A DNA stretch of 12,353 nt from Oribacterium sp. Lineage in GTDB: Bacteria > Bacillota_A > Clostridia > Lachnospirales > Lachnospiraceae. The DNA lies in the NCBI GenBank assembly GCA_017940955.1, contig JAGAXP010000038.1, forward strand, positions 1 to 12,353, read 5' to 3'. The position numbers and the translations under genes were made by a program. Shown here in pieces: positions 1-12,256 of the stretch (the first letter of the stretch is position 1; every line of letters starts with the position of its first letter). Below the pieces are notes generated by a model. The model was not told the DNA's origin, ran no database searches, and saw nothing but the letters and a program-made list of their open reading frames with translations.

Positions 1-1
1 C

Positions 2-160
2 AATATCATGAGCTCTGCCACCATGCGTGCGGCCCAGAAGAATCCTGAGGAATATAAGGATATGCTGGTCAGAGTTGCAGGCTACAGTGCATATTTCGTT
101 GAACTTGGAAAGGCACTGCAGAAGGATCTGATCCAGAGAACAGAATTAAGTTTTGGTTAA
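2..160 (+). CDS. Glycyl radical enzyme, C-terminal end (partial); candidate DHPS dehydratase or DHPS sulfo-lyase
   Basis: Only the last 52 residues are in the window; the gene runs off the left edge. Reading from base 2, the fragment holds the glycyl radical loop RVAGYSAYF followed by VELGKALQKDLIQRTE, the usual end of the pyruvate formate-lyase/glycerol dehydratase superfamily. The radical glycine is codon 80-82. These enzymes need a radical SAM activase, which is not in the window and may lie further left. The RVAGYSA...RTE ending resembles the glycerol dehydratase side of the family, which includes HpfG (DHPS dehydratase), HpsG (DHPS sulfo-lyase) and IslA (isethionate lyase). Family membership is seen directly. 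A DHPS substrate is inferred from the adjoining iron-type alcohol dehydrogenase and the sulfoglycolysis operon that makes DHPS. The substrate-binding part is missing, so glycerol, propanediol or isethionate cannot be excluded. Confidence 0.85.
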   Translation, partial: NIMSSATMRAAQKNPEEYKDMLVRVAGYSAYFVELGKALQKDLIQRTELSFG

Positions 161-177
161 TGATGCCACCGGGCGGT

Positions 178-208
178 GCCATCGGGGTTCCCGGGGCACC
201 CCGATGGC
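178..208 (+). terminator. GC-rich stem-loop after the glycyl radical enzyme gene (terminator or attenuator)
   Basis: A perfect 11-bp stem (GCCATCGGGGT / ACCCCGATGGC) encloses a 9-base loop, starting 17 bases after the stop codon. It is followed by TGCCTTAG rather than a clean T tract. It may stabilise the 3' end of the upstream message or terminate only partly, with read-through into the dehydrogenase gene. Confidence 0.5.
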
Positions 209-231
209 TGCCTTAGAAAAATATGCCATAT

Positions 232-261
232 GGGACAGTTCTCTCCGGAGAGAACCGTCCC
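232..261. repeat. GC-rich palindrome upstream of the alcohol dehydrogenase gene
   Basis: A 30-base near-perfect palindrome reads GGGAC-A-GTTCTCTCC / GGAGAGAAC-C-GTCCC, with one A:C mismatch. It lies 17 bases before the dehydrogenase Shine-Dalgarno AAGGAG (278-283). There is no T tract, so a simple terminator is unlikely. Its shape suggests a dispersed intergenic hairpin or an RNA processing or stability element. No promoter is evident between the two genes, so the dehydrogenase is probably expressed by read-through past both hairpins. Confidence 0.6.
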
Positions 262-289
262 CGGTGGATAAATATAAAAGGAGTATGAG

Positions 290-1447
290 ATGAAAGATTT
301 TGAATTTAAAGTACCGCAGACTATCAAATTCGGAGTAGGAAGCCTTAAGGAGATTCCTGAGATCGTGAGGTCGGAAATGAAGACAGATAAGGTTTTCCTG
401 GTTTCCGACAGAGGGCTGGAATCCATCGGAGTAGTCAAGAAGGTCGTAGACCTTATCGTGGCAGCGGGGATTAGCTGCGAAAGCTTCCTTGATGTTATCC
501 CGAACCCCACAGTTGCCTGTGTTAAGGAGGCAGCAGCAAAGTACAAGGAGTCCGGCGCAGGCTGCATCGTTGCTCTCGGCGGCGGAAGCCCTATGGATGT
601 TGCCAAGGCTGTGGGTGTTCTTTCAACCTATGGCGGAGAGATCCAGCAGTACGTTGGTACAGGCAAGGTTCCGGGACCTATCACACCTATCATTGCGGTT
701 CCCACAACGGCAGGTACCGGAAGTGAAGTAACAGCTTCAGCGGTAATTACTGACGAGGTGACCAATTTCAAGATGTCCGTTTTCAGCTATGAGCAGATTC
801 CGAAGTTTGCCATCCTTGATCCTGAACTTATCATGACTGCACCCGCATCTGTAGCAGCAGCCTGCGGTATCGACGCTCTCATCCACGCTATGGAAGCCTA
901 CGTTTCAAACAACGCGACTCCTTTCTCCGATGCCATGGCAGAGAAGGCTATGGAGCTTATCGGAAAGAATCTCCGCAGATTCGTTGCAAACCGTAAGGAT
1001 GCAGACGCAGCCAGCGCCATGATGCTTGGTTCAAACTTCGCAGGTATATCCTTCGCATGGGCAAGACTTGGTGACGTACATGCATTAAGCCACCCTGTAA
1101 GCGGACATTTCCATGTGGCTCACGGTGTTGCCAATGCTATCCTTCTTCCATATGTGGCTGAGTACAATGCAATCGCAGACCATGACGGAAAGTTCGAGAA
1201 GATCTACAGATACATCCGTGAGGAAAAGGGACCTGTAGTGAACTTCGTACCTATGATGCTGGTTGATGAAATTAAGAAGCTTAACAAGCAGCTCGGCATA
1301 CCCGGGAAGCTTTCCGATGTCGGAGTAACAGAGGATAAGATTGACGTAATGGCTGAAGATGCCATGAAGGGACAGGCCAATATCATGGCCAACCCCAGAC
1401 AGACAACACTAAAGGATTGTGTAATGCTTTATAAGAAGGCGCTGTGA
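290..1447 (+). CDS. Iron-containing (group III) alcohol dehydrogenase; candidate 3-sulfopropionaldehyde or hydroxyacetone reductase
   Basis: A full-length 385-residue group III alcohol dehydrogenase. The nucleotide-binding GGGSPMD is at residues 97-103 and VPTTAGTGSE at 137-146. By alignment with FucO the metal ligands are D195 and H199 (GIDALIHAME), H264 (GDVHALSHP) and H278 (AHGVANAILLP). An acidic residue after the second strand (VSDRG, D40) fits NADH preference. AAGGAG six bases before the ATG supports the start. The family reduces small aldehydes and ketones to alcohols. Next to the glycyl radical enzyme the likely job is disposal of its carbonyl product: 3-sulfopropionaldehyde to 3-hydroxypropane-1-sulfonate (as proposed for HpfD) if that enzyme is a DHPS dehydratase, or hydroxyacetone to 1,2-propanediol if it is a lyase. 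Substrate is inference; a general 1,3-propanediol or lactaldehyde reductase is the main alternative. A strong terminator closes this unit. Confidence 0.9.
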   Translation: MKDFEFKVPQTIKFGVGSLKEIPEIVRSEMKTDKVFLVSDRGLESIGVVKKVVDLIVAAGISCESFLDVIPNPTVACVKEAAAKYKESGAGCIVALGGGSPMDVAKAVGVLSTYGGEIQQYVGTGKVPGPITPIIAVPTTAGTGSEVTASAVITDEVTNFKMSVFSYEQIPKFAILDPELIMTAPASVAAACGIDALIHAMEAYVSNNATPFSDAMAEKAMELIGKNLRRFVANRKDADAASAMMLGSNFAGISFAWARLGDVHALSHPVSGHFHVAHGVANAILLPYVAEYNAIADHDGKFEKIYRYIREEKGPVVNFVPMMLVDEIKKLNKQLGIPGKLSDVGVTEDKIDVMAEDAMKGQANIMANPRQTTLKDCVMLYKKAL

Positions 1448-1479
1448 TCTGTTAAAAAACGAAATAATAAGTAATCGAG

Positions 1480-1534
1480 AACCACCATAATTGATTTACA
1501 TTAGTGAGAAATCATATATGGTGGTTTTTCTTTT
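1480..1534 (+). terminator. Strong intrinsic terminator after the alcohol dehydrogenase gene
   Basis: A 10-bp outer stem AACCACCATA / TATGGTGGTT with an inner TGATTT / AAATCA extension is followed directly by TTTTTCTTTT. It starts 33 bases after the stop codon and separates the dehydrogenase unit from the sulfoglycolysis operon. Confidence 0.9.
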
Positions 1535-1540
1535 GTACAA

Positions 1541-1602
1541 AATACCTCCTTTACAGAACTTTGGAATATCAAAATTCCAGGTTGGTTAAAGGGGGTATTT
1601 TT
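1541..1602. terminator. Second terminator-like hairpin, possibly bidirectional
   Basis: AATACCTCCTTTA (1541-1553) pairs with TAAAGGGGGTATT (1587-1599) with one G-T wobble; an inner TGGAAT / ATTCCA stem sits in the loop, and TTTTT follows. On the opposite strand the same stem ends in TATTTTG, so it could act in both directions. It backs up the terminator just upstream. Confidence 0.75.
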
Positions 1603-1762
1603 GTATATAAATAATCGCACAAAATGAGACATATGAAACATAAAAGTATTGATATTTAGTTGAAAATTAAGCTTTTTCCGGCGTGAATTCAAAGGCAATT
1701 TTACCAATCAAAAACGACAATTAATTAACAAAGGGCAAAAATAGTATGCATATGGTTGAAAA
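1603..1762. other. AT-rich non-coding stretch, no gene recognised
   Basis: This is the middle of the only gene-free region longer than 300 bases (1448-1869). It is strongly AT-rich, and no convincing coding frame, RNA gene or clear repeat was seen. The terminators to its left and the promoter to its right account for the rest of the gap. It may hold regulator or CcpA-type sites that cannot be assigned by eye. Confidence 0.5.
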
Positions 1763-1781
1763 TGCACTTTACAATTGTGCA
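1763..1781. promoter_or_regulatory. Candidate operator: inverted repeat TGCAC-N9-GTGCA over the -35 box
   Basis: TGCAC (1763-1767) and GTGCA (1777-1781) form a symmetric repeat around TTTACAATT, which contains the -35 hexamer. A bound protein would block RNA polymerase, so a substrate-released repressor is the simplest reading. No regulator gene is in the window. The symmetry is seen; operator function is inference. Confidence 0.45.
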
Positions 1782-1795
1782 AAATTAACTATAAT
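1768..1795 (+). promoter_or_regulatory. Sigma-A type promoter for the sulfoglycolysis operon
   Basis: A -35 TTTACA (1768-1773) and a consensus -10 TATAAT (1790-1795) are separated by 16 bases, in an AT-rich setting. Transcription would start near 1802, giving a leader of about 65-70 bases before the transaldolase. This is the only convincing promoter seen in the window. Confidence 0.75.
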
Positions 1796-1823
1796 ACATA
1801 TTAATTAAATGAATTAACTAAAT

Positions 1824-1854
1824 ACCGGCTTTCAAAATACATCAAATTGCCGGT
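1824..1854 (+). promoter_or_regulatory. Leader stem-loop just before the transaldolase ribosome binding site
   Basis: ACCGGC (1824-1829) pairs with GCCGGT (1849-1854) across an A-rich 19-base loop, ending four bases before a perfect AAGGAGG (1858-1864). It could protect the 5' end of a highly expressed message or affect initiation. No known riboswitch fold was recognised. Confidence 0.45.
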
Positions 1855-1869
1855 TCTAAGGAGGAAGTT

Positions 1870-2556
1870 ATGAAGTTTTTTCTTGACAGTGCAAAATTAG
1901 ACGAGATCGACTATGCGTATAAGACATTCGGAATCGATGGTGTAACAACTAATCCAAGACACATCATGCTCAGCGGAAAGCCATTCGTGACAGCCATCAC
2001 AGACATCGCTAACTGGATCAAGGAGAATGGCCTTGAGGGCATCGACAAGTTCCCTGTATCTATCGAGATCAACCCGCATCTTGACAAGACAGAGGATATG
2101 GTAGCTGAAGCAAAGAAGTATGCTAAGGTTTCTCCGAACTTTGCCATCAAGATCCCGGCAACAGAGGCAGGTATCGCAGCAGCAAGACAGCTTGAGAAGG
2201 AAGGCATCAGAACAAACCTTACACTTGTATTTGCACCTTCACAGGCAATTTTCGCAGCAAAGAATGGTTCACTTTTCGTATCACCCTTCATCGGCTGGAA
2301 AGAGGACAACGGTGAGGATTGCAAGCAGTACATCAAGGACATCGTTGATATCTATAAGAACTACGGCTTCTACGGAAAGACACAGATCATCTGTGCAGCA
2401 CTTCGTTCACCGAAGCAGATGGTTGACTGCGCAGTAGCAGGAGCTGACATCATCACAGCAGGACTTGCAGTTTACAAGAGCGCTCAGCATCATGCATACA
2501 CAACACAGGGAATCGGAACCTTCTGTGATGCATGGGATAACACAAAGGCAGAGTAA
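1870..2556 (+). CDS. sftT: 6-deoxy-6-sulfofructose transaldolase (small transaldolase/FSA fold)
   Basis: A 228-residue protein of the short TalC/fructose-6-phosphate aldolase type. Visible family marks are FFLDSA (D6), GVTTNP (24-29, N28), the Schiff-base lysine K94 in AIKIPAT, and NLTLVFAPSQA (116-126). Two places differ from sugar-phosphate enzymes as I know them. The loop normally ending in an arginine (APYVGRxDD type) reads SPFIGWKED, with W143 at that position, and TTNPS is TTNPR (R30). Both fit a changed anion site, here sulfonate. In the sulfo-TAL pathway the enzyme cleaves sulfofructose and transfers the dihydroxyacetone unit to glyceraldehyde-3-phosphate, releasing sulfolactaldehyde and fructose-6-phosphate. 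It is first in its operon, behind the promoter and an ideal Shine-Dalgarno. The specific role rests on the GH31 and reductase neighbours and these substitutions; the fold itself is near certain. Confidence 0.9.
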   Translation: MKFFLDSAKLDEIDYAYKTFGIDGVTTNPRHIMLSGKPFVTAITDIANWIKENGLEGIDKFPVSIEINPHLDKTEDMVAEAKKYAKVSPNFAIKIPATEAGIAAARQLEKEGIRTNLTLVFAPSQAIFAAKNGSLFVSPFIGWKEDNGEDCKQYIKDIVDIYKNYGFYGKTQIICAALRSPKQMVDCAVAGADIITAGLAVYKSAQHHAYTTQGIGTFCDAWDNTKAE

Positions 2557-2659
2557 TTTCATAAACGTTTATTGAGATAAACAGGATATGTCATAAACAA
2601 AGGACATTTCCGTCAGAAGAATATAAGACTTGATTTGAAAAAAGTCTTTGGAGGAAGCA

Positions 2660-3523
2660 ATGAAGATTGGTTTTATCGGACTCGGAATCATGGGCGAGTC
2701 CATGTGCGCAAATATAGTTAAGAAGCATGACGATACAGTTTACTGTTTCGATTTTGTAAAGGAAAAGGTTGAGGAGCTTGCCAAGGTCGGAGCAGTTCCC
2801 GCTGAGAACAATGCTGATCTGGCTGAGAAAGCTGATGTGATCATTTCCATGGTTCCTAAGTCGGAGCATTCAAAGGCAGTTTATACCGAGATTCTTCCGA
2901 AACTCGGAAAAGGAAAGATCTGCATCGATATGAGCACCATCGATCCGAGTGTTTCAGTTGAAATCGCAAAGATGGTTAAGGAAACCGGAGCTCAGTTCGC
3001 AGACGCTCCTGTAGTTAAGTCAAAGCCGGCAGCAATCGCAGGAAAGCTTGGCATCTACGTTGGATGCGACGAGGAGCTTTACGATACAGTTCGTCCGATA
3101 CTTGCTTACATGGGTGAGAATATCATCCGCATGGGTGAGAACGGAACCGGAATCACCATGAAGATCCTTCACAATGCACTTGTTGGTCAGATCCAGAACG
3201 GTGTTAATGAGGTTTCAAATCTTGCGGCAGTTTGCGGCATAGATATCCAGACCTTCGCAACAGCTATTTCTTACGGCGGCGGACAGAATTTCTATCTTGA
3301 CAGCAAAAAGGACGTTATCGAGAAGAACGATTTCACAACAGCCTTCTCCATTGAGAACATGTATAAGGATGTAAACATCTGCAAGAAGCTTGCTGAGGAA
3401 AAGGGTCTTCCCATGCCGGGCGAGATGAATGTAGTAAGAATTTATGACAAGGCTATGGAAATGGGATTCGCAAAGGAGGACTTCTCTGCAACCATTAAGG
3501 TTGTGAGATCAGAGAAGGTTTAA
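2660..3523 (+). CDS. 3-sulfolactaldehyde reductase, YihU-like (3-hydroxyisobutyrate dehydrogenase family)
   Basis: A 287-residue beta-hydroxyacid dehydrogenase. The Rossmann motif GLGIMG is at residues 7-12, and D31 after the second strand favours NADH. The catalytic lysine is K168 with N172 (MKILHN). The substrate loop at 115-125 reads DAPVVKSKPAA. The usual family loop is DAPVSGG; E. coli YihU has VGRTSANA, whose arginine binds the sulfonate, and K120 falls at that arginine. The role is reduction of sulfolactaldehyde to DHPS, re-oxidising NADH in a fermenter. I chose the ATG at 2660: GGAGG (2650-2654) sits five bases upstream, and a TTG four codons earlier overlaps that ribosome site. The gene follows the transaldolase by about 100 bases and is followed after three bases by the cupin gene. 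Another short hydroxyacid substrate is possible but less likely here. Confidence 0.88.
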   Translation: MKIGFIGLGIMGESMCANIVKKHDDTVYCFDFVKEKVEELAKVGAVPAENNADLAEKADVIISMVPKSEHSKAVYTEILPKLGKGKICIDMSTIDPSVSVEIAKMVKETGAQFADAPVVKSKPAAIAGKLGIYVGCDEELYDTVRPILAYMGENIIRMGENGTGITMKILHNALVGQIQNGVNEVSNLAAVCGIDIQTFATAISYGGGQNFYLDSKKDVIEKNDFTTAFSIENMYKDVNICKKLAEEKGLPMPGEMNVVRIYDKAMEMGFAKEDFSATIKVVRSEKV

Positions 3524-3526
3524 GCC

Positions 3527-4198
3527 ATGGAGCTTTTACAGCATTTAAATGAAGTAAATGATGTGACCATAAAATCTGTGCTGGATACTGAGGCCTTCAA
3601 GACCTACGGACGTGTGGTTGAGGGTTATGATTTTTCTGAGATTACAGAATATATGGAAGCAAATACACCGATTCCCGAGGCGGGTAATGTCTATGTTCCG
3701 TCTGTACCTGAGATGGAAGCATTAGCCGAAAAGGAAAAGGTTGAAAAGATAATCTACGGAGGGATGCCCATACAGATAGGTTACTGTAACGGCAGGAACA
3801 CAACCTACAACGGCTTTGAGTACCACAAGGGCAGCGAGATAAATGTAGCGGTCACAGATTTCATGCTTTGTCTCGGCCATGTCTGGGATATAAAGGACAA
3901 TACCTACGACATCAAGGATGTGCAGGTTTTCTTCGTTCCGAAGGGCACAGCCATAGAGATGTATCAGACAACTCTTCACCTTTCACCCTGCAGGGTAACA
4001 GATGAGGGCTTCAAGGGAGTTGTGATCCTTCCTAAGGGAACCAATACACCTCTTGAAAAGCTTGAGCCTGTGGACGATGAGGGAAAGCTTCTCCTTCAGA
4101 GAAACAAATGGGTAATAGCTCATCCTGAAAGGGAACCGTTGGTTAAGCAGGGCGCTGTAACCGGTGTTATCGGACCAAATAAGGAACTCCATTATTGA
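3527..4198 (+). CDS. Cupin-fold protein, DUF4867-like; sulfosugar isomerase or accessory protein
   Basis: A 223-residue protein with a single cupin-type barrel. Candidate metal ligands are H100 and E104 in EYHKGSE, H118 in LGHVW, and H151 in the TTLHLSPC segment that follows VPKGTAIEMY. The overall pattern matches what I recall of DUF4867, a family found in Firmicute sulfo-TAL clusters. Related cupins include D-lyxose isomerase and archaeal phosphoglucose isomerase, so an aldose-ketose isomerase or an anomer-converting role on SQ is reasonable. The locus also carries an L-fucose-isomerase-like protein better placed to be the main SQ isomerase, which leaves this one possibly auxiliary. It starts three bases after the reductase stop, with its ribosome site (GAGAAGG) inside the upstream gene, so the two are probably translationally coupled. 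Fold moderately sure; function not established by the sequence. Confidence 0.75.
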   Translation: MELLQHLNEVNDVTIKSVLDTEAFKTYGRVVEGYDFSEITEYMEANTPIPEAGNVYVPSVPEMEALAEKEKVEKIIYGGMPIQIGYCNGRNTTYNGFEYHKGSEINVAVTDFMLCLGHVWDIKDNTYDIKDVQVFFVPKGTAIEMYQTTLHLSPCRVTDEGFKGVVILPKGTNTPLEKLEPVDDEGKLLLQRNKWVIAHPEREPLVKQGAVTGVIGPNKELHY

Positions 4199-4208
4199 TA
4201 TAATTGGA

Positions 4209-4237
4209 CGTTTTACAGTCCACTGGACTGTAAAACG
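4209..4237. repeat. 29-base palindrome between the cupin and sulfoquinovosidase genes
   Basis: CGTTTTACAGTCCA and its exact reverse complement flank one central C. As RNA this folds to a hairpin of about 12-13 bp with a tiny loop. No T tract follows, so termination would be weak. It starts 11 bases after the cupin stop and may serve as a 3' stability element or processing site, or belong to a dispersed intergenic repeat family. Confidence 0.7.
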
Positions 4238-4300
4238 ATTGTGTGTCAGATATAAACAGGGAAAAACATGTTTTATAGATGAGAGGGGAATTAAATCGAT

Positions 4301-6307
4301 ATGGAATTACTTATAAATAATCAAAAGCTTGAATTGACTGACAGAGGACAGACTCTTCTAAAGACCGGTGAAGATACTCCTATGATCTACATAGGGCACG
4401 GTAAAGAGTCGGTTGATATGTACAGGGGAAACTTCAGGATTGAGGATTATGTGGCGGACAAAATTCCGCTCCATGTGACTGAGGTTTCGGAAGGTGAAAA
4501 GGGCACTGAAGTTAATTTCGAAAACAAGATAACAGCAGTGTTCAGAGTCGATGGAGACCTTGCAGAAATAAGTTTCAAGTGCCTCGATGATACAGTTAAC
4601 AGATTCTGGTTCAGGGTTAATGCAGACAAAACAGAGCATGTATACGGCTGCGGTGAGCAGATGTCCTACTTCGATCTGAGAGGAAGACACTTTCCTCTTT
4701 GGACATCGGAGCCGGGTGTGGGAAGAGATAAAACAACCTACGTAACCTGGAGATCAGACGTTGAGAATAAGGCCGGCGGGGATTACTACAATACAAACTA
4801 TCCGGAGCCAACCTATGTTTCATCAAAGTGCTATTACTTACATGCAGACTCAACTGCATATGCAGATTTTGACTTCAGGAATGATGAGTTTCATGAGCTG
4901 CAGTTCTGGGAGGTTCCTGCTTCCGTCCGCATAGAATCGGCAGAAAGCTATACAGAGCTTCTGGAAAAGGAAACAGAATTTTTCGGAAGACAGCCTGAGC
5001 TTCCGGACTGGGTTTATAACGGACTTATCTTCGGAGTTCAGGGCGGAAATGAAAGATCCTTCGGACTTGCGGAAAAGGTTCGTAAGGGCGGAGTTAATCT
5101 CGCAGGTATCTGGTGCCAGGACTGGTGCGGAAAGAGGATCACAAGCTTCGGTAAGAGACTTCAGTGGGACTGGCATTTCCACAAGGAGATGTACCCGGGT
5201 CTTCCGGAAAAGATAAAGGGACTTCATGAACAGGGGATCAAGTTCCTGGGTTATGTAAATCCTTATCTTGTAAACGACGGTGAGCTTTTCAGAGAAGGCG
5301 AGGAAAAAGGCTATTTCGCAAAGAGACACGACGGAACAACCTATCTTGTGGATTTCGGAGAGTTCTACTGCGGAGCCGTGGACCTTACAAATCCTGAGGC
5401 CTTCGAGTGGTTCAAGGGAATCATAAAAAAATACAGCATTGACATCGGTATAGACGGATGGATGGCTGATTTCGGAGAATATCTCCCGACTGACGATATC
5501 GTTCTTTACAGCGGTAAGTCAGCAATGGTAGAGCATAATCATTGGCCTGAGCTTTGGGCTAAATGTAATTACGAAGCAGTTTCAGAGACAGGAAACCTTG
5601 GAAAGATAGTTTATTTTATGAGAGCCGGAGCAGCAGGCAGCCAGAAGTACTGCACACTCCTCTGGGCAGGAGATCAGTCAGTCGATTTTTCAAGACATGA
5701 CGGATTATGTACAGTCATTTCTGCGGCATTAGGCTCAGGAATGATGGGTAATGGTCTCAGCCACAGCGATATCGGAGGATATACATCACTTTTCGGCAAT
5801 GTAAGAACCAAGGAAGTTTTCATGAGATGGGCGGAGATGGCAGCATTTACACCTGTTATGAGAACTCACGAGGGCAACAGACCGGACGACTGCTACCAGT
5901 TCTATGATGATGAAGATGGTATCAGAAGGATGGCAAGACTTGTAGACATTTACAGAGAGATGTCACAGTACACAAAGGATGCCGTAAAGGAAAATCATGA
6001 AAAGGGAATACCGGTACAGAGACCGCTGTTCCTTCACTATGATGAGCCGCGCTGCTACGAAGAGCAGTTCGAATATCTCCTTGGAAGAGATGTGTTGGTG
6101 GCACCGGTTTACGAAGCCGGTAAGACTGAGAGGGAGGTTTACCTTCCTGATGACGAGTGGGTACACCTTTGGACAGGACGCACCTACGGAAAGGGTGTCA
6201 ATGTTGTAGGCGCCGAGCTTGGATTCACACCGGTATTTTACAGAAAGAACTCAAAGTACAGAGAGCTTTTTGAAAAGATCGGTGAGAAATACGGTAAGCT
6301 CAGCTGA
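4301..6307 (+). CDS. sftG: Sulfoquinovosidase, GH31 (YihQ-like)
   Basis: A 668-residue GH31 alpha-glycosidase (E. coli YihQ is about 680) that closely follows YihQ as I recall it. Long matching stretches include WCQDWCGKRITSFGKR (271-286), WMADFGEYLPTD (387-398), WAGDQSVD (455-462) and HSDIGGYTSLF (488-498). The nucleophile is D390 and the acid/base D458. The sulfonate-recognition set known from YihQ (R301, W304, Y508) is present as R286, W289 and Y494 with identical spacings, which separates it from ordinary alpha-glucosidases. It hydrolyses alpha-SQ glycosides such as sulfoquinovosyl glycerol to SQ. No signal peptide is visible, so cleavage is cytoplasmic and the glycoside must be imported intact. 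The Shine-Dalgarno-like GAGGGGAA is 10-11 bases upstream, slightly far. This gene anchors the assignment of the whole locus. Confidence 0.95.
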   Translation: MELLINNQKLELTDRGQTLLKTGEDTPMIYIGHGKESVDMYRGNFRIEDYVADKIPLHVTEVSEGEKGTEVNFENKITAVFRVDGDLAEISFKCLDDTVNRFWFRVNADKTEHVYGCGEQMSYFDLRGRHFPLWTSEPGVGRDKTTYVTWRSDVENKAGGDYYNTNYPEPTYVSSKCYYLHADSTAYADFDFRNDEFHELQFWEVPASVRIESAESYTELLEKETEFFGRQPELPDWVYNGLIFGVQGGNERSFGLAEKVRKGGVNLAGIWCQDWCGKRITSFGKRLQWDWHFHKEMYPGLPEKIKGLHEQGIKFLGYVNPYLVNDGELFREGEEKGYFAKRHDGTTYLVDFGEFYCGAVDLTNPEAFEWFKGIIKKYSIDIGIDGWMADFGEYLPTDDIVLYSGKSAMVEHNHWPELWAKCNYEAVSETGNLGKIVYFMRAGAAGSQKYCTLLWAGDQSVDFSRHDGLCTVISAALGSGMMGNGLSHSDIGGYTSLFGNVRTKEVFMRWAEMAAFTPVMRTHEGNRPDDCYQFYDDEDGIRRMARLVDIYREMSQYTKDAVKENHEKGIPVQRPLFLHYDEPRCYEEQFEYLLGRDVLVAPVYEAGKTEREVYLPDDEWVHLWTGRTYGKGVNVVGAELGFTPVFYRKNSKYRELFEKIGEKYGKLS

Positions 6308-6431
6308 CATAAAGAGAACCGGGTAACATACGTTAGAAGTATCAGAAACGTGAGACTTACGGTAAGGCCGGCTGACATAAATAGCGGATAGCTAAGCATT
6401 GGCATTTCAGGTGAACTGAAAAGGGATACAC

Positions 6432-7259
6432 ATGATAAGTACTGATTACGTTCTATTCTTTCTTGATGTTTTTCTCGCCCACATCATGCATGGAGTCACA
6501 GGGTTTGCGGGAACACTTCTCGCCATGCCTTTCGGACTCATGCTGGTGGGATATCCGGTGGCGAAGCCGGTACTGAATATCCTCGGATTGTTCAGCGGGA
6601 TCTATGTATTCCTGGGTAACAGGAAATACGTAGTCTGGAAGGAATTATGGAAGATAGTAGCCATCATGGCTGTCGGAATTCTGGCAGGCATCTATATAAA
6701 GGATATGCTTCTCGGGAAAGAGAAGCTGCTGTATCTTGCGCTTGGGATATTCGTTATAGCGGTTTCGGTGCACGGGCTTATAAAGGAGCTGAGATCGGAC
6801 TCCGAAAAAAAGAACGGTAAGGAAGCATCAGACAAAGATTCAACGGCAGCTGAAGATGAGGCCGGAGAGATTGAGTCGGGAACCGGTGAGAAAGAAAGTG
6901 AAAAAGCTTTTTCGCCTCTGAATTACCTTCTTCTTCCGGTGGCAGGAGTTATACATGGCATCTTCGTAAGCGGCGGACCCTTACTGATAAGCTATCTGAC
7001 AAAACGCATCCCGGAAAAAAATCAGTTCAGAACAACCATATCAACGGTATGGATATTTCTGAATGCACTGGTTCTTTTGGATGATATAAGATCCGGTTAC
7101 TGGGATATGAAGCTTGTGATAACAACACTGATTGCGGCACCGTTCCTTTTCGGGGGATTGAAGATAGGCTCCATACTATACAGGAGGATGAGCCAGCATA
7201 CATTCATGATAGTTACATTTGTTTTACTCCTTTTAATGGGAATAAAACTGCTGTTCTGA
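6432..7259 (+). CDS. TauE/SafE-family membrane exporter (sulfonate or sulfite efflux)
   Basis: A 275-residue integral membrane protein made of two related halves. Each half starts with a histidine-glycine membrane segment: AHIMHGVTGFAGTLLAMPF (16-34) and GVIHGIFVSGGPLLISY (172-188). Further hydrophobic segments lie near 47-62, 75-92, 98-115, 203-216, 227-247 and 257-275. This matches the TauE/SafE family of anion exporters, which recurs in sulfonate-degradation clusters. The halves are joined by an unusually long polar linker (about 121-158) rich in Glu, Asp, Lys and Ser. The expected cargo is the pathway end product: DHPS or 3-hydroxypropane-1-sulfonate, or sulfite if the glycyl radical enzyme is a C-S lyase. 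AAAAGGGA lies five bases before the ATG. It follows the GH31 gene by 124 bases with no terminator, so co-transcription is likely. Cargo and direction are inferred. Confidence 0.8.
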   Translation: MISTDYVLFFLDVFLAHIMHGVTGFAGTLLAMPFGLMLVGYPVAKPVLNILGLFSGIYVFLGNRKYVVWKELWKIVAIMAVGILAGIYIKDMLLGKEKLLYLALGIFVIAVSVHGLIKELRSDSEKKNGKEASDKDSTAAEDEAGEIESGTGEKESEKAFSPLNYLLLPVAGVIHGIFVSGGPLLISYLTKRIPEKNQFRTTISTVWIFLNALVLLDDIRSGYWDMKLVITTLIAAPFLFGGLKIGSILYRRMSQHTFMIVTFVLLLLMGIKLLF

Positions 7260-7420
7260 AAAGGCTGAACAGAAACAGCTTACGGGATTTTATATTGAAT
7301 ACATAAGCTGAAGAAACTCTCCGGCCGTAAGGATCCGGAAATGAAACAAATAAACAAAAAAATCAAAGGTCATAAGACCAGGATAATAAAAAAACATAGG
7401 TACACAGGAGGAAGGTTACT

Positions 7421-8560
7421 ATGAGAAAACAGTTTATGGCAGGAATTCTTGCTGCAGCAATGACAGCAGCAGCGCTTACAGGATGCGGAAGTTCAAATAC
7501 ATCTGCACCTGCAACAGAGGCAGCAAAAACAGAGGCTGCAAAAACAGAGACTGCAGCTACTGAGGCAGCAAAAACAGAGGCTGCAGCTGAGACAAAGGCA
7601 GAAGAGAAGCAGGCAGCAGCAGGAAGCGGACAGACAGTTAAGGTTATCTGCCCATACGGTGTAGGCGGTACAGCTGATATCATCGCAAGAAAGTTTTCTG
7701 AGGTTGCTACAAAGACACATCCTGAATACAACTTCATCGTTGAACAGCAGACAGGCGGAGACGGATTCGCAGCTGCAACAGCATTCACACAGGAGGATCC
7801 AAGCACAACAGATCTTCTGGTTTACGGATACGGCGTAGCTTACCGTCATGATCTCGGAAAGCAGTTCAATACAGAGGTTGTTGATTTCGACAGAAGTGAG
7901 ATACTTCCGCTTGCAACAGTAGATGACAGAACATGGATCCTTTACACAACACCTGATCAGACACTTGCAGGTCTTCTTGAGAAGGCAAAAGCCGGCAGCC
8001 TTAAGATGTCCGGTGGAAACCCTCTTTCAGATCCACATCTTGCATTAGGTTCACTTCTTGCTCAGGAAGATGGAAAGGTTATGGTAGTACCTTATGATGG
8101 TGGTGCTGCTCAGAAGAAGGGTCTTACAGACGGTGAGGTTGACTGTTTCGTAGGTACAACACAGGCTGCACAGGAAGATGTTGAGGCAGGTATCCTTATC
8201 CCTGTTCTTGCATTCTCAGACAAGGCATTCAAAGGTTTCAAGGGACCTCAGGGTGATATAGTTGTTCCTTCACTTGCCGGTGATGACAAGGCTGCTGACC
8301 TTGATGCTTCCAAGGATTATACAAAGTCAATCCTTCCTGCAGGCGGTTCTATCGCAACACGTAAGGGTGCTTCACAGGAGTGGCAGGATGCAGTAGTTCA
8401 GGTTGCAAAGGACGTTTGGGCTACAGACGAGTACAAGGATTTCATCGCAAGCATCATGCTTAACGATACAGAGTACTATGGCGAGGATGATGTTCAGCAC
8501 TATGAGGATGCATGTGCAGCAGCAGTAGAAGCATTCAAGCTTCTCAGTGGCCAGCAGTAA
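7421..8560 (+). CDS. Tripartite tricarboxylate transporter substrate-binding lipoprotein (TctC/Bug family)
   Basis: A 379-residue extracytoplasmic binding protein. Residues 1-22 are a lipoprotein signal with lipobox ALTGC, so C22 should be lipid-anchored outside the membrane. Residues 32-67 form a low-complexity tether of repeated TEAAK-like units. The binding domain opens with VKVICPYGVGGTADIIAR (73-90), the characteristic Bug/TctC start. AGGAGG stands 9 bases before the ATG. It delivers substrate to the TctA/TctB membrane pair encoded next. The usual TctC ligands are carboxylates, but this copy sits inside an SQ operon just after the glycosidase and exporter, so SQ, sulfoquinovosyl glycerol or another sulfonate is the likely cargo. 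TTT systems have been linked to sulfolactate import elsewhere. Family is sure; ligand is inferred from context. Confidence 0.9.
   Translation: MRKQFMAGILAAAMTAAALTGCGSSNTSAPATEAAKTEAAKTETAATEAAKTEAAAETKAEEKQAAAGSGQTVKVICPYGVGGTADIIARKFSEVATKTHPEYNFIVEQQTGGDGFAAATAFTQEDPSTTDLLVYGYGVAYRHDLGKQFNTEVVDFDRSEILPLATVDDRTWILYTTPDQTLAGLLEKAKAGSLKMSGGNPLSDPHLALGSLLAQEDGKVMVVPYDGGAAQKKGLTDGEVDCFVGTTQAAQEDVEAGILIPVLAFSDKAFKGFKGPQGDIVVPSLAGDDKAADLDASKDYTKSILPAGGSIATRKGASQEWQDAVVQVAKDVWATDEYKDFIASIMLNDTEYYGEDDVQHYEDACAAAVEAFKLLSGQQ
7517..7585 (+). repeat. Exact 24-base direct repeat in the TctC linker
   Basis: The 24 bases at 7517-7540 recur exactly at 7562-7585, offset 45 bases and so in frame, encoding EAAKTEAA at residues 33-40 and 48-55. 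It makes the Ala/Glu/Lys/Thr tether between the lipid anchor and the binding domain. Slippage here would change tether length without a frameshift. Confidence 0.85.
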
Positions 8561-8654
8561 TTAAAAGTTAGAAAAGATTCCTTGGTAAGTGATGAATAGT
8601 CATTACCGGTTCCCATACCTCCAGAGGTTTGGTTAAAAAACAGTGTTATTAACT

Positions 8655-8692
8655 GCCCGGCGATGCCTTTTCGGCAGCGTCGGGCTTTCTTT
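8655..8692 (+). terminator. Intrinsic terminator/attenuator between tctC and tctB
   Basis: GCCCGGCGATGCC (8655-8667) pairs with GGCAGCGTCGGGC (8673-8685) with one wobble and one A-G mismatch, around a TTTTC loop, followed by TTTCTTT. Since tctB and tctA have no visible promoter, this is best read as a partial terminator that lets the binding protein be made in excess over the membrane subunits. An ATG inside the stem (8663) is in frame with tctB but is not credible as its start. Confidence 0.85.
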
Positions 8693-8707
8693 GAAAAGGA
8701 TAAGATA

Positions 8708-9184
8708 ATGAAAAAAACAATTAAGATTAAAACAAACCTGCTGGCAGGTACAGTGATGGGACTTTTCTCCCTCATCATGCTTTTGATAATGCCTTCGCAG
8801 GTAAGACTTCCCATGTGGGATTCCGGAGCGCCCAGTCCCAGGATCATTCCGGGCATATGTTTAGTGGGTATCCTTATCTGCTCAGTCATACTTCTTGTGC
8901 AGAGTCTTGTTTTCCATAAGGAGCATATCTATGAATTTGTTTGGGAGAATGAAAGAAAAGAGCTTCTCCTTATCGCAGCACTTGTTGTGTTTGTTATTCT
9001 TACAAATGCGCTGGGTTTCATACCTGCGGGCATGCTTATCTTCTGTGCAATCCAGTGGTATGAGGGTGAAAGAAAACCGTTTATTTATATCTATACACTG
9101 GCTATGGTAGTCATAGTTTACTTCCTTTTCCAGAATGTCTTCCATGTTGATCTTCCTGCAGGAATACTTAAGGGAATAATCTAA
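8708..9184 (+). CDS. Tripartite tricarboxylate transporter small membrane subunit (TctB)
   Basis: A 158-residue protein with about four membrane segments, near 11-28, 47-66, 84-103 and 126-141 with a short hydrophobic stretch around 105-115. The typical TctB pattern is present: a first helix, a polar loop with SPRIIPG, and a C-terminal FHVDLPAGIL. It forms the membrane complex with TctA. I placed the start at 8708 (MKKTIKIK) because AAAAGGA is seven bases upstream; an in-frame ATG 45 bases earlier lies inside the terminator stem and would add an unlikely arginine-rich extension. TctB proteins diverge quickly, so the call relies on topology and its position between TctC and TctA. The TctA gene begins 12 bases after its stop. 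Confidence 0.87.
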   Translation: MKKTIKIKTNLLAGTVMGLFSLIMLLIMPSQVRLPMWDSGAPSPRIIPGICLVGILICSVILLVQSLVFHKEHIYEFVWENERKELLLIAALVVFVILTNALGFIPAGMLIFCAIQWYEGERKPFIYIYTLAMVVIVYFLFQNVFHVDLPAGILKGII

Positions 9185-9196
9185 AGAGGTGTCGTT

Positions 9197-10753
9197 ATGG
9201 GTTATTTTGATTATGTTGCTTCCGCACTTGCAGCGGTATTTACAGTTACCAATATGATGTTCATTCTCGGTGGAATGCTTATGGGTATGGTCATCGGCTG
9301 TATCCCGGGACTCAGTGTCACACTGGGAATCATCCTTTTCCTTCCGCTAACATACGGAATAAAGGATCCAAGTACAGCCATAATAGCACTTCTTGCAGTT
9401 TACGTAGGCGGAATGTACGGCGGTTCCATCAGTGCCATCACACTTAACACACCGGGTACAAACTCAGCTATCGCCACAACCTTTGACGGATATCCTCTGG
9501 CAAAGAAGGGCAGAGTTCTGCAGGCACTTGATACTTCTCTTTTTGCTTCCTCCTTCGGAGGCATCATCGGAGCTCTTTTACTCCTGGTACTTGCAGCTCC
9601 TATTGCGGCTTTTGTTTCAAAGTTCACCTCAGTTGAGTATTTCTCAATGGCTATCCTCGGAATCTCACTTCTTGCGGGTGTTTCCGGAAATTCTCTTCCC
9701 AAAGGTATCATGTCAGGTCTTTTCGGAATACTCATTGCCTGCGTCGGTGTTGATGCGGTAACCGGTGTTTCCAGATTCACTTTCGGAGTATCGATCCTTC
9801 AGTTCGGTATCGATATGCTTCCAGCCATGATCGCACTTGTAGCTCTTAAACAGGTTGTCGGAAAGCTTGCAGAGTTCAAGGTAAACGGCGGAAAGATGGA
9901 GGATGCCAATAAGATCGATAAGAAGGGCTTAACTCTTGCAGAAGCCAAGTCGATCCTTCCCGCAACGGCACTTTCAACTATCATCGCTTCCTTCATCGGC
10001 GCTATGCCGGGTGTAGGCGGAGGCGTTGCACAGTTCCTTTGCTACAATCAGGCAAAGCAGATATCAAAGCATCCCGAAAAGTTCGGTAAGGGTTCACTTG
10101 AAGGAATCGCAGCAGCAGAGTCTTCAAACAATGCAGTTGTTGGTTCTGCAATGATCCCTCTCATGACTATGGGTATCCCGGGAGACGGTGTTACAGCCCT
10201 TCTTCTCGGAGCCTTCATTCTTCATGGTATGCAGCCGGGACCTAACATGTTCACAAAGCAGGCTGTACAGGCTTATACCATCATTGTTGGATGCTTTGTT
10301 GCGAACTGTTTCCTCTGGCCTCTGGGCAAGGTTATGACCAGAGCGGTTGCAAAGGTAGTTCAGGTTAAGTACACATATCTTGCACCTGCCATCATGCTTT
10401 TCTGCTTCGCTGGAGCTTTTGCAGGAACAGGAAACTTCAAGGAAATGGTTTTCTGTGCAGTACTTCTTGTATTCAGTTATCTTCTCAAGATTATGGAGAT
10501 AGATGCCATCCCGCTTCTTCTCGGACTTATCCTTGCGAAGATCATGGAAACAAATTTCGTTACAGCAATGATGTCTTATGACAGAGATTATTTCATCTTC
10601 TTCAAGAGACCTATATCTCTTATCATCCTTCTCATCACAGTGGTTCTGGTTGGCTCAATGATCAGAATTAACAAGAAGGTTGAGGCCCTTAACGAAGAGC
10701 AGGCTGAAGAGATGGAAAAGCTTCACGAGGAAATTTCGGTGGAGACAGTGTAA
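9197..10753 (+). CDS. Tripartite tricarboxylate transporter large permease subunit (TctA)
   Basis: A 518-residue membrane protein of normal TctA length with many hydrophobic helices. Signature motifs are clear: GCIPGLSVTLGIILFLPLT (34-52), GGMYGGSISAI (71-81) and NTPGTNSAIATTFDGYPLA (84-102) in the first half. In the second half they recur as MPGVGGGVAQFL (270-281) and MTMGIPGDGVTALLLGAF (323-340). The paired Pro-Gly loops of the two halves form the substrate pocket in this family. The C terminus (about 493-518) is charged and cytoplasmic. Uptake is driven by an ion gradient and fed by the lipoprotein TctC. The Shine-Dalgarno AGAGGTG directly follows the tctB stop, so the two are coupled. In this operon it is the only evident importer, so it should bring in the sulfosugar or its glycoside. 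The cargo is inference. Confidence 0.93.
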   Translation: MGYFDYVASALAAVFTVTNMMFILGGMLMGMVIGCIPGLSVTLGIILFLPLTYGIKDPSTAIIALLAVYVGGMYGGSISAITLNTPGTNSAIATTFDGYPLAKKGRVLQALDTSLFASSFGGIIGALLLLVLAAPIAAFVSKFTSVEYFSMAILGISLLAGVSGNSLPKGIMSGLFGILIACVGVDAVTGVSRFTFGVSILQFGIDMLPAMIALVALKQVVGKLAEFKVNGGKMEDANKIDKKGLTLAEAKSILPATALSTIIASFIGAMPGVGGGVAQFLCYNQAKQISKHPEKFGKGSLEGIAAAESSNNAVVGSAMIPLMTMGIPGDGVTALLLGAFILHGMQPGPNMFTKQAVQAYTIIVGCFVANCFLWPLGKVMTRAVAKVVQVKYTYLAPAIMLFCFAGAFAGTGNFKEMVFCAVLLVFSYLLKIMEIDAIPLLLGLILAKIMETNFVTAMMSYDRDYFIFFKRPISLIILLITVVLVGSMIRINKKVEALNEEQAEEMEKLHEEISVETV

Positions 10754-10807
10754 AAAGGCAGATTATGATCTACAGGTAAGGGATAAAATCAAATTTACTG
10801 AAAAGTG

Positions 10808-10853
10808 AGTGATGACCGGACTGAAAAGGAATTTCAAGTACCGGTCATCATTT
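10808..10853 (+). terminator. Stem-loop after tctA (weak terminator or processing site)
   Basis: TGATGACCGG (10810-10819) pairs exactly with CCGGTCATCA (10841-10850); an inner ACTGAAA / TTTCAAGT pairing with one bulge lengthens the stem. The tail is ATTTCAAAAT, a poor T tract. It may reduce read-through into the isomerase gene. A TATAGT at 10888-10893 could be a -10 box, but no good -35 precedes it. Confidence 0.55.
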
Positions 10854-10915
10854 CAAAATAAGACAATAAACAATAGATTCATAAAACTATAGTAATCAGA
10901 AAAGAGGAATTAACA

Positions 10916-12256
10916 ATGGGTTTTCAGGTAGCATATGTACCTATAGGAGTAGGTACATTTCATTTAGAGAGTGCGCAGATTCAGTTTGAAAAGTCAATTA
11001 AGATGCTTAAGGATATCACAGAGGATGTAGTGGTTCCGGAGAAGATGCTTCTCTCCATAGATCTTCTTGATGAATTTCTGGATGGTATAAATCCGGATAT
11101 TATAGTACTTCAGAACATAACATTTGCAAATGCAGCCTATGCAACAGAGGTTCTGAGAAGATTTACATGTCCTATACTTCTCTGGACTCTGAGAGAGCCG
11201 GTTATCGACGGTGGAAGACTGAGACTTAATTCTCTTACAGGAGCATTTTCAGCAGCAAACAGTATAAAGGCATTCAGAAAGGACTCAAAGTTTGAGTATA
11301 TGTTCGGTGCTCCTGATGAGAAGGAGATCATCGACAAGGCACGTGCTGTTATCAATGCTGCAAGAGTAAAGAAGGATTTAAAGGGCTTAAAGCTGGTATC
11401 CATCGGACATACTCCTCAGGGCTTCGGCTTCGGAAGAGCTCTGGACGCTGACATTACCTCTGTATTCGGTGCAACTCTTGACTCAATCGAATCAAGAGAG
11501 CTTATCAATAAGGCAAAGTCATATACAGACGAAGAGTGCGAAGAGTATCTTGACGATGCCAAAAAGCAGATCGTAGGACTTGAGAATACTCCGGAGAAGA
11601 ATGTAAAGGATTTCGCAAAGCTTTATAAGGCTTATAAGGATTACGTTACAGAGAATCATATCGGAGCAATCTCTTCCCGCTGCTGGCCTGATTTCTTCAC
11701 TGATTTCGGAACACCTGTATGTGCTGTACTTTCACTTCTTAATTCACTGGGAGTATCTGCCAGCTGCGAATCCGACACCTACGGTGCTCTGTCAATGTAT
11801 ATCGGATCAAAGTTCACAGGTAAGTCCTGTTTCTTCGGTGATCCCGTTTCTCTTGATGAAGGCGAGAACACAATAACTTTCTGGCACTGCGGAATGGCTG
11901 CCTGCGATCTTGCCAGAAAGGATACCGGTGCAGCAGTAGGAGTTCATCCAAACAGAAAGCTTGGTCCCACCATGGAATTTGGCTGCGAGAGCGCTGAGCA
12001 TGCTACGATTTTTCGCGTAGGAAGAGATGAGAACGGTAAGTTCAGATTCTTCATCGCAGAGGGTTCTGTGCTTGATAAGCCAAAGCAGTTCCTCGGAACT
12101 TCAATAGTAGTTAAGACAGAGAATAATTCCAGGAAGATTGTAGAGGATGCAGTAAAGGGCGGCTGGGAGCCACACTATGTTGTGACTTACGGAAGCTGCG
12201 CAGACGAACTTGAAGTTCTCGGAAACATGCTTGGTATTGAGGTCTGCAGATTCTAA
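10916..12256 (+). CDS. sftI: L-fucose/L-arabinose isomerase-like protein; probable sulfoquinovose isomerase
   Basis: A 446-residue protein of the L-fucose isomerase-like family (COG2407 type). The C-terminal half carries the metal site: E285 in CESDTYGALSM, D309 in FFGDPVS and H420 in EPHYVVTYG. The 24-residue gap between E285 and D309 equals that between E337 and D361 in E. coli FucI, where H528 completes the Mn site. WHCGMAA (323-329) and EHATIFRVGR...GKFRFFIAEG (361-383) are further family marks, and SSRCWPDF (253-260) lies in the active-site region. Role: aldose-ketose conversion of SQ to 6-deoxy-6-sulfofructose, feeding the transaldolase. AGAGGAA seven bases upstream supports the start. 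The isomerase chemistry is well supported; the SQ substrate is inferred from the operon. Its placement last, after the transporter and a hairpin, suggests separately tuned expression. The alternative is that the cupin protein is the SQ isomerase. Confidence 0.8.
   Translation: MGFQVAYVPIGVGTFHLESAQIQFEKSIKMLKDITEDVVVPEKMLLSIDLLDEFLDGINPDIIVLQNITFANAAYATEVLRRFTCPILLWTLREPVIDGGRLRLNSLTGAFSAANSIKAFRKDSKFEYMFGAPDEKEIIDKARAVINAARVKKDLKGLKLVSIGHTPQGFGFGRALDADITSVFGATLDSIESRELINKAKSYTDEECEEYLDDAKKQIVGLENTPEKNVKDFAKLYKAYKDYVTENHIGAISSRCWPDFFTDFGTPVCAVLSLLNSLGVSASCESDTYGALSMYIGSKFTGKSCFFGDPVSLDEGENTITFWHCGMAACDLARKDTGAAVGVHPNRKLGPTMEFGCESAEHATIFRVGRDENGKFRFFIAEGSVLDKPKQFLGTSIVVKTENNSRKIVEDAVKGGWEPHYVVTYGSCADELEVLGNMLGIEVCRF

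Follow-up and report, generated by a model that had tools for sequence, protein, structure and literature searches.

An extended form of sulfoglycolysis, which draws on the glycyl radical enzyme HpfG and the dehydrogenase HpfD, has been proposed for Vibrio scophthalmi and Enterococcus gilvus (PMC9594981) and has been reviewed (PMC12890257). On sulfoquinovose (SQ), E. gilvus made 3-hydroxypropanesulfonate (3-HPS) and 3-sulfopropionate, and Vibrio and Epulopiscium were also named (PMC11489063). The hpfGHD genes occur together with the sulfofructose transaldolase (sulfo-SFT) genes in ten Enterocloster metagenome-assembled genomes, nine of E. clostridioformis and one of E. aldenensis, and Faecalibacterium prausnitzii is thought to hold the extended pathway with a putative hpfG (PMC12330013). 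Here we analyse a window of 12,353 nt from Oribacterium sp. (Lachnospiraceae; contig JAGAXP010000038.1 of GCA_017940955.1), whose genes all lie on the + strand: the 3' end of a glycyl radical enzyme (GRE) gene, an iron alcohol dehydrogenase gene, and a sulfo-transaldolase cluster at 1870-12256 in the order sftT, sftR, sftX, yihQ, tauE, tctC/B/A-like and sftI. This locus very probably encodes an Oribacterium-type extended sulfo-transaldolase sulfoglycolysis, running from SQ to 2,3-dihydroxypropane-1-sulfonate (DHPS), then to 3-sulfopropionaldehyde and finally to 3-HPS. The combination of sulfoglycolysis with HpfGHD is already published; Oribacterium is an added genus, for which no report of SQ use or 3-HPS formation was found in the literature searched, which covers few subscription journals.

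As in E. gilvus, where the conversion of SQ to 3-HPS in one cell has been shown in culture, the sulfo-transaldolase genes are linked to those for HpfG, HpfH and HpfD; E. gilvus differs in also having HpfX and HpfYZ, which give 3-sulfopropionate (PMC11489063), and the window in its tripartite transporter and its apparent division into two transcription units. Both sets likewise share one genome in Enterocloster, but the locus tags of E. clostridioformis YL32 put hpf well apart from sft (PMC12330013). In the F. prausnitzii stretch (L006 in our numbering of loci), TctA (69% identity, 41% covered, cut by the stretch end) adjoins SftI (74%), followed by HpfH, HpfG and HpfD; the gene order differs from that of the window, and the remaining sulfo-transaldolase genes are absent from the stretch examined. 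Epulonipiscium viviparus (L050) has SftT, SftR, SftX, YihQ, TauE, HpfH, HpfG, HpfD and SftI all linked, but with the hpf genes between TauE and SftI and no TctCBA detected in the stretch. The sulfo-SFT system of Eubacterium rectale shares the sulfoquinovosidase, SftX/DUF4867 and the transaldolase route to DHPS, whereas DHPS is there the exported product and hpf genes go unmentioned in the accessible text (PMC11968277, PMC8397734).

Identity of the glycyl radical enzyme

The window opens within the gene that we name hpfG, for a predicted glycyl radical DHPS dehydratase, of which the last 52 codons and the stop lie at 2-160 (+) and the remainder lies to the left. Translation of 2-157 gives 52 residues including the motif RVAGYSA, with the glycyl Gly, followed by a stop codon at 158-160, and these residues match Pfam Gly_radical at 43 bits (cut-off 22.2). 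Their best NCBIfam model was HpfG, at 96.1 bits, vs 63.4 for HpsG, scores to which the cut-offs of full-length models do not apply. The match to HpsG by the fragment alone is the one point in favour of an alternative listed in an earlier, sequence-only reading of this DNA, namely that the GRE cleaves the C-S bond as HpsG does, with hydroxyacetone and sulfite as products, the latter open to use by sulfite reducers.

Complete enzymes from close relatives were compared by curated equivalog models. A scan with the window dehydrogenase across 84,980 species, each represented by a single genome, gave 88 relatives, and the 80 best of these were retained; the five closest loci (88-95% identity) belong to Oribacterium sp. 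WCC10, UBA4274, C9 and P6A1 and to Lachnospiraceae bacterium JC7, which is placed in the same genus. All five carry a complete HpfG at 1522.8-1559.2 bits, above the equivalog cut-off of 1000 (NF048009). The window fragment is identical at 51 of 52 positions to the HpfG of WCC10 (L001), at 40-51 of 52 to the 26 HpfG rows compared (from 39 HpfG loci), and at no more than 37 of 52 to the 15 other GRE rows in which the motif was matched; a further 19, lacking the motif string, did not enter this comparison. The complete L001 enzyme scored 1540.7 bits on HpfG vs 515.6 on HpsG (NF048011, cut-off also 1000). The dedicated radical SAM activase is present beside the GRE in the relatives: HpfH adjoins HpfG in L001 (NF048008, 520.8 bits, cut-off 500), tblastn matches of 67-69% place it in the other four, and the order HpfH, HpfG, HpfD holds in all five. 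We infer that the left flank of the window itself matches these.

In a FastTree phylogeny built from 60 GREs, all 26 HpfG rows fell into a single group with support 100, which takes in Hungatella hathewayi (L019) and Klebsiella spallanzanii (L048) and has the Oribacterium relatives inside it. Conversion of DHPS to 3-HPS is known from the H. hathewayi and Klebsiella lineages. A model-labelled HpsG (L144, 1478.2 bits) fell outside this clade, albeit on a long branch, and no clustering of HpfG with pyruvate formate-lyase (PFL) was seen. This was a quick tree with several long outgroup branches and 17 of 57 forks open, and only its HpfG clade is used; its rows comprised 26 of the 39 HpfG loci and model-labelled HpsG and PFL, so that choline lyase and glycerol dehydratase, which had no labelled row, were compared by model and alignment scores. 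Klebsiella was represented in it by K. spallanzanii and not by K. oxytoca. The adjacent aldehyde/alcohol reductase also fits a dehydratase rather than a lyase. We give the lyase identity next to no chance and set it aside on the model scores and the tree.

It is scarcely more probable that the enzyme is a general diol dehydratase, acting on glycerol or propanediol and located here by chance. The best solved chain for the L001 GRE was indeed a glycerol dehydratase (1r8w, 631.3 bits), and H164, H281, S282, C433, E435 and D447 of that chain, by alignment with numbering counted by hand, are all retained. We take these positions to be the catalytic Cys and Glu and the diol-binding His, His, Ser and Asp, with substrate-contacting roles; as expected, their retention would fit a vicinal-diol dehydratase. 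Against a general role stand the HpfG score, above its cut-off, vs 677.8 bits on the glycerol dehydratase/PFL2 subfamily model (just below its cut-off of 678.2), the clade shared with Hungatella and Klebsiella in a tree without a labelled glycerol dehydratase row, and the linkage to sulfonate genes. Taken together, membership of the HpfG family is established in the five relatives, as is HpfH in one by model and in four by similarity, and the comparisons support the identification of the window GRE as HpfG, a predicted DHPS to 3-sulfopropionaldehyde dehydratase. The dehydratase branch of the sequence-only reading is thus supported and its sulfite branch is not.

Two genomes of about 2.2 Mb each (G159 and G234) hold about 25 and 15 PFL-like GRE matches, some scoring 1014-1057 bits on HpfG; those just above the cut-off fall outside the clade of HpfG loci, and the HpfG cut-off may admit a sister family.

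The dehydrogenase and the sulfo-transaldolase genes

The gene following hpfG, at 290-1447 (+), encodes an iron alcohol dehydrogenase of 385 aa (Pfam Fe-ADH and ADH_Fe_C above cut-off) that is HpfD-like and a predicted 3-sulfopropionaldehyde reductase. It is 88-95% identical to its counterparts in the five Oribacterium loci and 70% to that of H. hathewayi L019, and in all six HpfH and HpfG stand upstream on the same strand. Two strong inverted repeats lie between hpfG and hpfD, at about 175-212 and 232-261. The half-site of the second, GGGACAGTTCTCTCCGGAGAGAACCGTCCC, is unmatched in the loci of the five Oribacterium relatives, and its longer half-site is likewise missing from every other locus compared; the repeat is perhaps an inserted palindromic element.

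The cluster extends far past position 3523 and begins with an sftT/sqvA-like gene for a 6-deoxy-6-sulfofructose transaldolase (1870-2556, +), whose nearest solved chain is BmSF-TAL 8bc3 at 283.1 bits, followed by two chains named only transaldolase (282.0 and 275.2 bits) and then 1vpx (151.8). Next come an sftR-like 3-sulfolactaldehyde reductase of the 3-hydroxyisobutyrate dehydrogenase family (2660-3523, +; Pfam NAD_binding_2 and _11) and sftX (3527-4198, +; Pfam DUF4867, 265.6 bits), whose product has no function established in the literature; SftX is equated with DUF4867 in PMC13219744 and PMC11968277. At 4301-6307 (+) stands a GH31 sulfoquinovosidase of the yihQ/sftG type, which scored 962.8 bits (cut-off 553) on PRK10426, an NCBIfam model titled alpha-glucosidase; it matched solved YihQ chains at 780.8-788.1 bits, and its best chain was 6pnr (1117.6). 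A TauE/SafE-family permease (6432-7259, +; Pfam TauE 86.3 bits, cut-off 32.6) is a candidate sulfonate exporter, and the cluster closes with an sftI-like sulfoquinovose isomerase (10916-12256, +), whose sole NCBIfam match is SftI. A full sulfo-transaldolase set of SQ isomerase, sulfofructose transaldolase, sulfolactaldehyde reductase and sulfoquinovosidase is thus predicted. Rfam models, applied at their gathering thresholds, gave no match in the window.

Linkage of the hpf unit to sulfoquinovose degradation

The sequence-only reading had observed a GRE C terminus and an iron alcohol dehydrogenase 5' of the SQ genes on the same strand, which translations, Pfam and the five relatives all confirm. 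Their adjacency to the cluster also holds, but not as part of a single operon: a hairpin at 1479-1527 runs into a T-rich stretch (1479-1535, +), resembling an intrinsic terminator at the end of the hpf unit, and a promoter-like site, TTTACA-16-TATAAT (1768-1795, +; 11 of 12 matches, on consensus only), precedes sftT. The fold of 1478-1540 reaches -19.8 kcal/mol (z -4.43, equalled by 0 of 200 shuffles), with a U-run after the hairpin. A consensus scan of the window is weak evidence here: it returned 16 promoter-like sites vs a shuffle mean of 19.2 and eight terminator-like sites vs 9.2, and the 1479 hairpin is absent from its own terminator list. Apparently, then, hpf and the sulfo-transaldolase cluster form two transcription units.

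Such a boundary favours a rival reading in which the two are independent neighbours: the hpf unit would serve DHPS imported from other cells, and most of the DHPS made from SQ would leave the cell, as in YL32. Among the best 80 of the 88 loci, HpfG occurs in at least 39, and SftT, SftR or SftI at 60% identity or more in at least 11, all 11 of them with HpfG; these counts are lower bounds, because the flanks reach no further than 10 kb and short contigs are common. Within the genus, HpfG scored above its cut-off in 5 of 17 genomes, and all five have an SftI of 410.7-418.7 bits on the same contig, as against one of the other 12 (G307, 420 bits), which has no detected HpfG (Fisher p 0.00097, uncorrected for kinship). 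The same gene set is complete in all five, and its repetition in five genomes of one genus argues that it is not due to chance. L002 and L003 show the same direct adjacency of the two sets as the window; in Epulonipiscium viviparus the hpf genes lie inside the sulfo-transaldolase cluster, and SftI directly adjoins HpfH in genome G153. Beyond the genus, HpfG scored above cut-off in 9 of 299 genomes sampled from the family, and only two of these nine (G001 and G153) have an SftI above 400 bits; another two of the nine are G159 and G234, with the low HpfG scores of 1014-1057 bits given above. HpfG is therefore often without this SftI elsewhere, yet linked to it in these Oribacterium genomes.

G307 favours independence. 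The seven family genomes with HpfG and no high-scoring SftI do so too and also weigh against the extended pathway proposed here, and the same holds for L001, L049 and L055, three of the five relatives, in which some 6-7 kb occupied by other genes separates hpfD from sftT. Several further points count against the pathway. The complete GRE and its activase lie outside the window. No NCBIfam model scored above its cut-off for the window dehydrogenase, and none for HpfD matched; HpfD-like dehydrogenases at 54-71% identity occur in 41 of the 80 loci without HpfG within the stretch bounded by 10-kb flanks, a range overlapping the 61-95% of the 39 HpfG-bearing loci, so that the dehydrogenase alone is not diagnostic. 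The SftR-like protein scored 145.7 bits on the sulfolactaldehyde reductase model (cut-off 348), under the 194.9 of the 3-hydroxyisobutyrate dehydrogenase model, and the SftI-like protein 415.1 bits, below the curated cut-off of 700; since both are below curated cut-offs, these two names rest partly on context. Finally, YL32, which has both gene sets, stopped at DHPS in culture, with no 3-HPS observed (PMC12330013); this too speaks for independence, and gene presence thus does not prove flux.

Given the co-occurrence on one contig in five of five genus members, and the interleaved arrangements elsewhere, we consider independent neighbours unlikely and retain the extended pathway as the better account. 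The earlier proposal that one cell takes SQ past DHPS therefore gains genetic support from HpfG above cut-off in five of five relatives, the adjacent HpfH and the tree; the flux is not proven by genes, and the idea had already been published.

The surroundings of the hpf unit vary among the relatives. The gap between hpfD and sftT holds an ABC sugar transporter, a LacI-type regulator and a GH32-like gene (named by eye) at 11733-17586 of L001 and 11466-17254 of L049, and different genes in L055. In three of the five (L001 3-587, L002 5025-6161, L049 4602-5843), a related LuxR-type regulator is encoded upstream of hpfH, with a GerE domain above cut-off in each; the L002 and L049 proteins are 63% identical, and the L001 piece is 76% identical to that of L049. 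It is a candidate regulator of the hpf unit, although in L001 a formate dehydrogenase pair stands between it and hpfH. In its place, L003 (4389-5627) and L055 (4774-6012) have a reverse transcriptase-like gene, perhaps a mobile intron; the L003 protein matches RVT_1 at 65 bits, and the L055 protein starts with the same residues.

A predicted tripartite transporter in the cluster

The least expected feature of the SQ cluster is a tripartite tricarboxylate-type transporter. TctC-, TctB- and TctA-type genes occupy 7421-10753 (+) and form a candidate importer of SQ or SQ-glycerol. TctA (435.4 bits, cut-off 28.9) and TctB (65, cut-off 29.1) score above the Pfam cut-offs, while the divergent TctC-like binding protein (7421-8560), at 19.1, is below its cut-off of 27. 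The window and each of the five Oribacterium relatives with HpfG have TctC/B/A-like genes placed between tauE and sftI, and G307 has TctA and TctB beside SftI, up to the contig end. No link between this transporter class and SQ uptake was found in the literature searched, and TctCBA may be an unreported type of SQ importer.

Predicted pathway and redox balance

We infer the substrates of HpfD, SftR, SftI and the transporters, and the direction of flux, from this arrangement. SQ or its glycerol glycoside would be imported, with YihQ releasing SQ; SftI would convert SQ to sulfofructose, from which SftT would split off sulfolactaldehyde, to be reduced by SftR to DHPS. HpfG, its radical installed by HpfH, whose gene would lie immediately beyond the left edge of the window, would then dehydrate DHPS to 3-sulfopropionaldehyde, which HpfD would reduce to 3-HPS for export. 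The added NADH sink would let pyruvate be oxidised to acetate.

Breakdown of SQ to DHPS and pyruvate leaves NADH in balance, and by arithmetic dehydration and reduction of DHPS use one further NADH. The formulae balance exactly, SQ (C6H12O8S) giving 3-HPS (C3H8O4S), acetic acid (C2H4O2) and CO2, so pyruvate oxidation yields exactly the electrons needed. The earlier argument that a second NADH per SQ would turn pyruvate towards acetate thus works on paper, provided that the electrons from pyruvate are passed back to NADH, through pyruvate:ferredoxin oxidoreductase (PFOR) and Rnf or through formate dehydrogenase. Four of the five relatives have PFOR above cut-off and the fifth has a fragment, while RnfC occurs in all five and formate dehydrogenase in three. 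The relatives carry PFL-type genes as well, four of them full-length ones and G002 a fragment, and one PFL, L084, was named by model (1177.7 bits, cut-off 994.2); formate could therefore be lost and NADH recovery bypassed unless formate is oxidised, a further count against the scheme.

Directly upstream of hpfH in L001 (1454-5985) lies a formate dehydrogenase alpha gene (845.5 bits, cut-off 666.25), paired with a gene for a GltD-like NAD(P)-binding protein. The pair resembled a purpose-built electron supply, but we claim no such link: it adjoins hpfH in one of five relatives, and in two others formate dehydrogenase lies elsewhere. The bifurcated HpfX/HpfYZ branch was dropped as well. PF08442, the HpfZ-like family of HpfYZ, was above its cut-off of 29.5 bits in none of the five genomes (weak matches of 19.5-22.6 bits in four) and absent among the scanned window proteins, so a 3-sulfopropionate branch of the E. 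gilvus type is not expected, HpfX not having been searched for genome-wide.

A complete fermentation can be put forward tentatively, and we hold it for rather doubtful: Oribacterium alone might convert SQ to 3-HPS, acetate and CO2 with no need of H2 or formate, pyruvate electrons reaching HpfD by way of PFOR and Rnf, or of formate dehydrogenase, and import proceeding through the tripartite tricarboxylate-type transporter.

These results extend HpfG-dependent sulfoglycolysis to Oribacterium, at the strength given above. Whether sulfide can be formed next depends on the end product of an SQ fermenter: Bilophila is fed by DHPS, whereas Bilophila wadsworthia did not grow on 3-HPS (PMC11489063). 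Because of this, cells with the proposed pathway would, if it operates, withhold DHPS from sulfide-forming neighbours.

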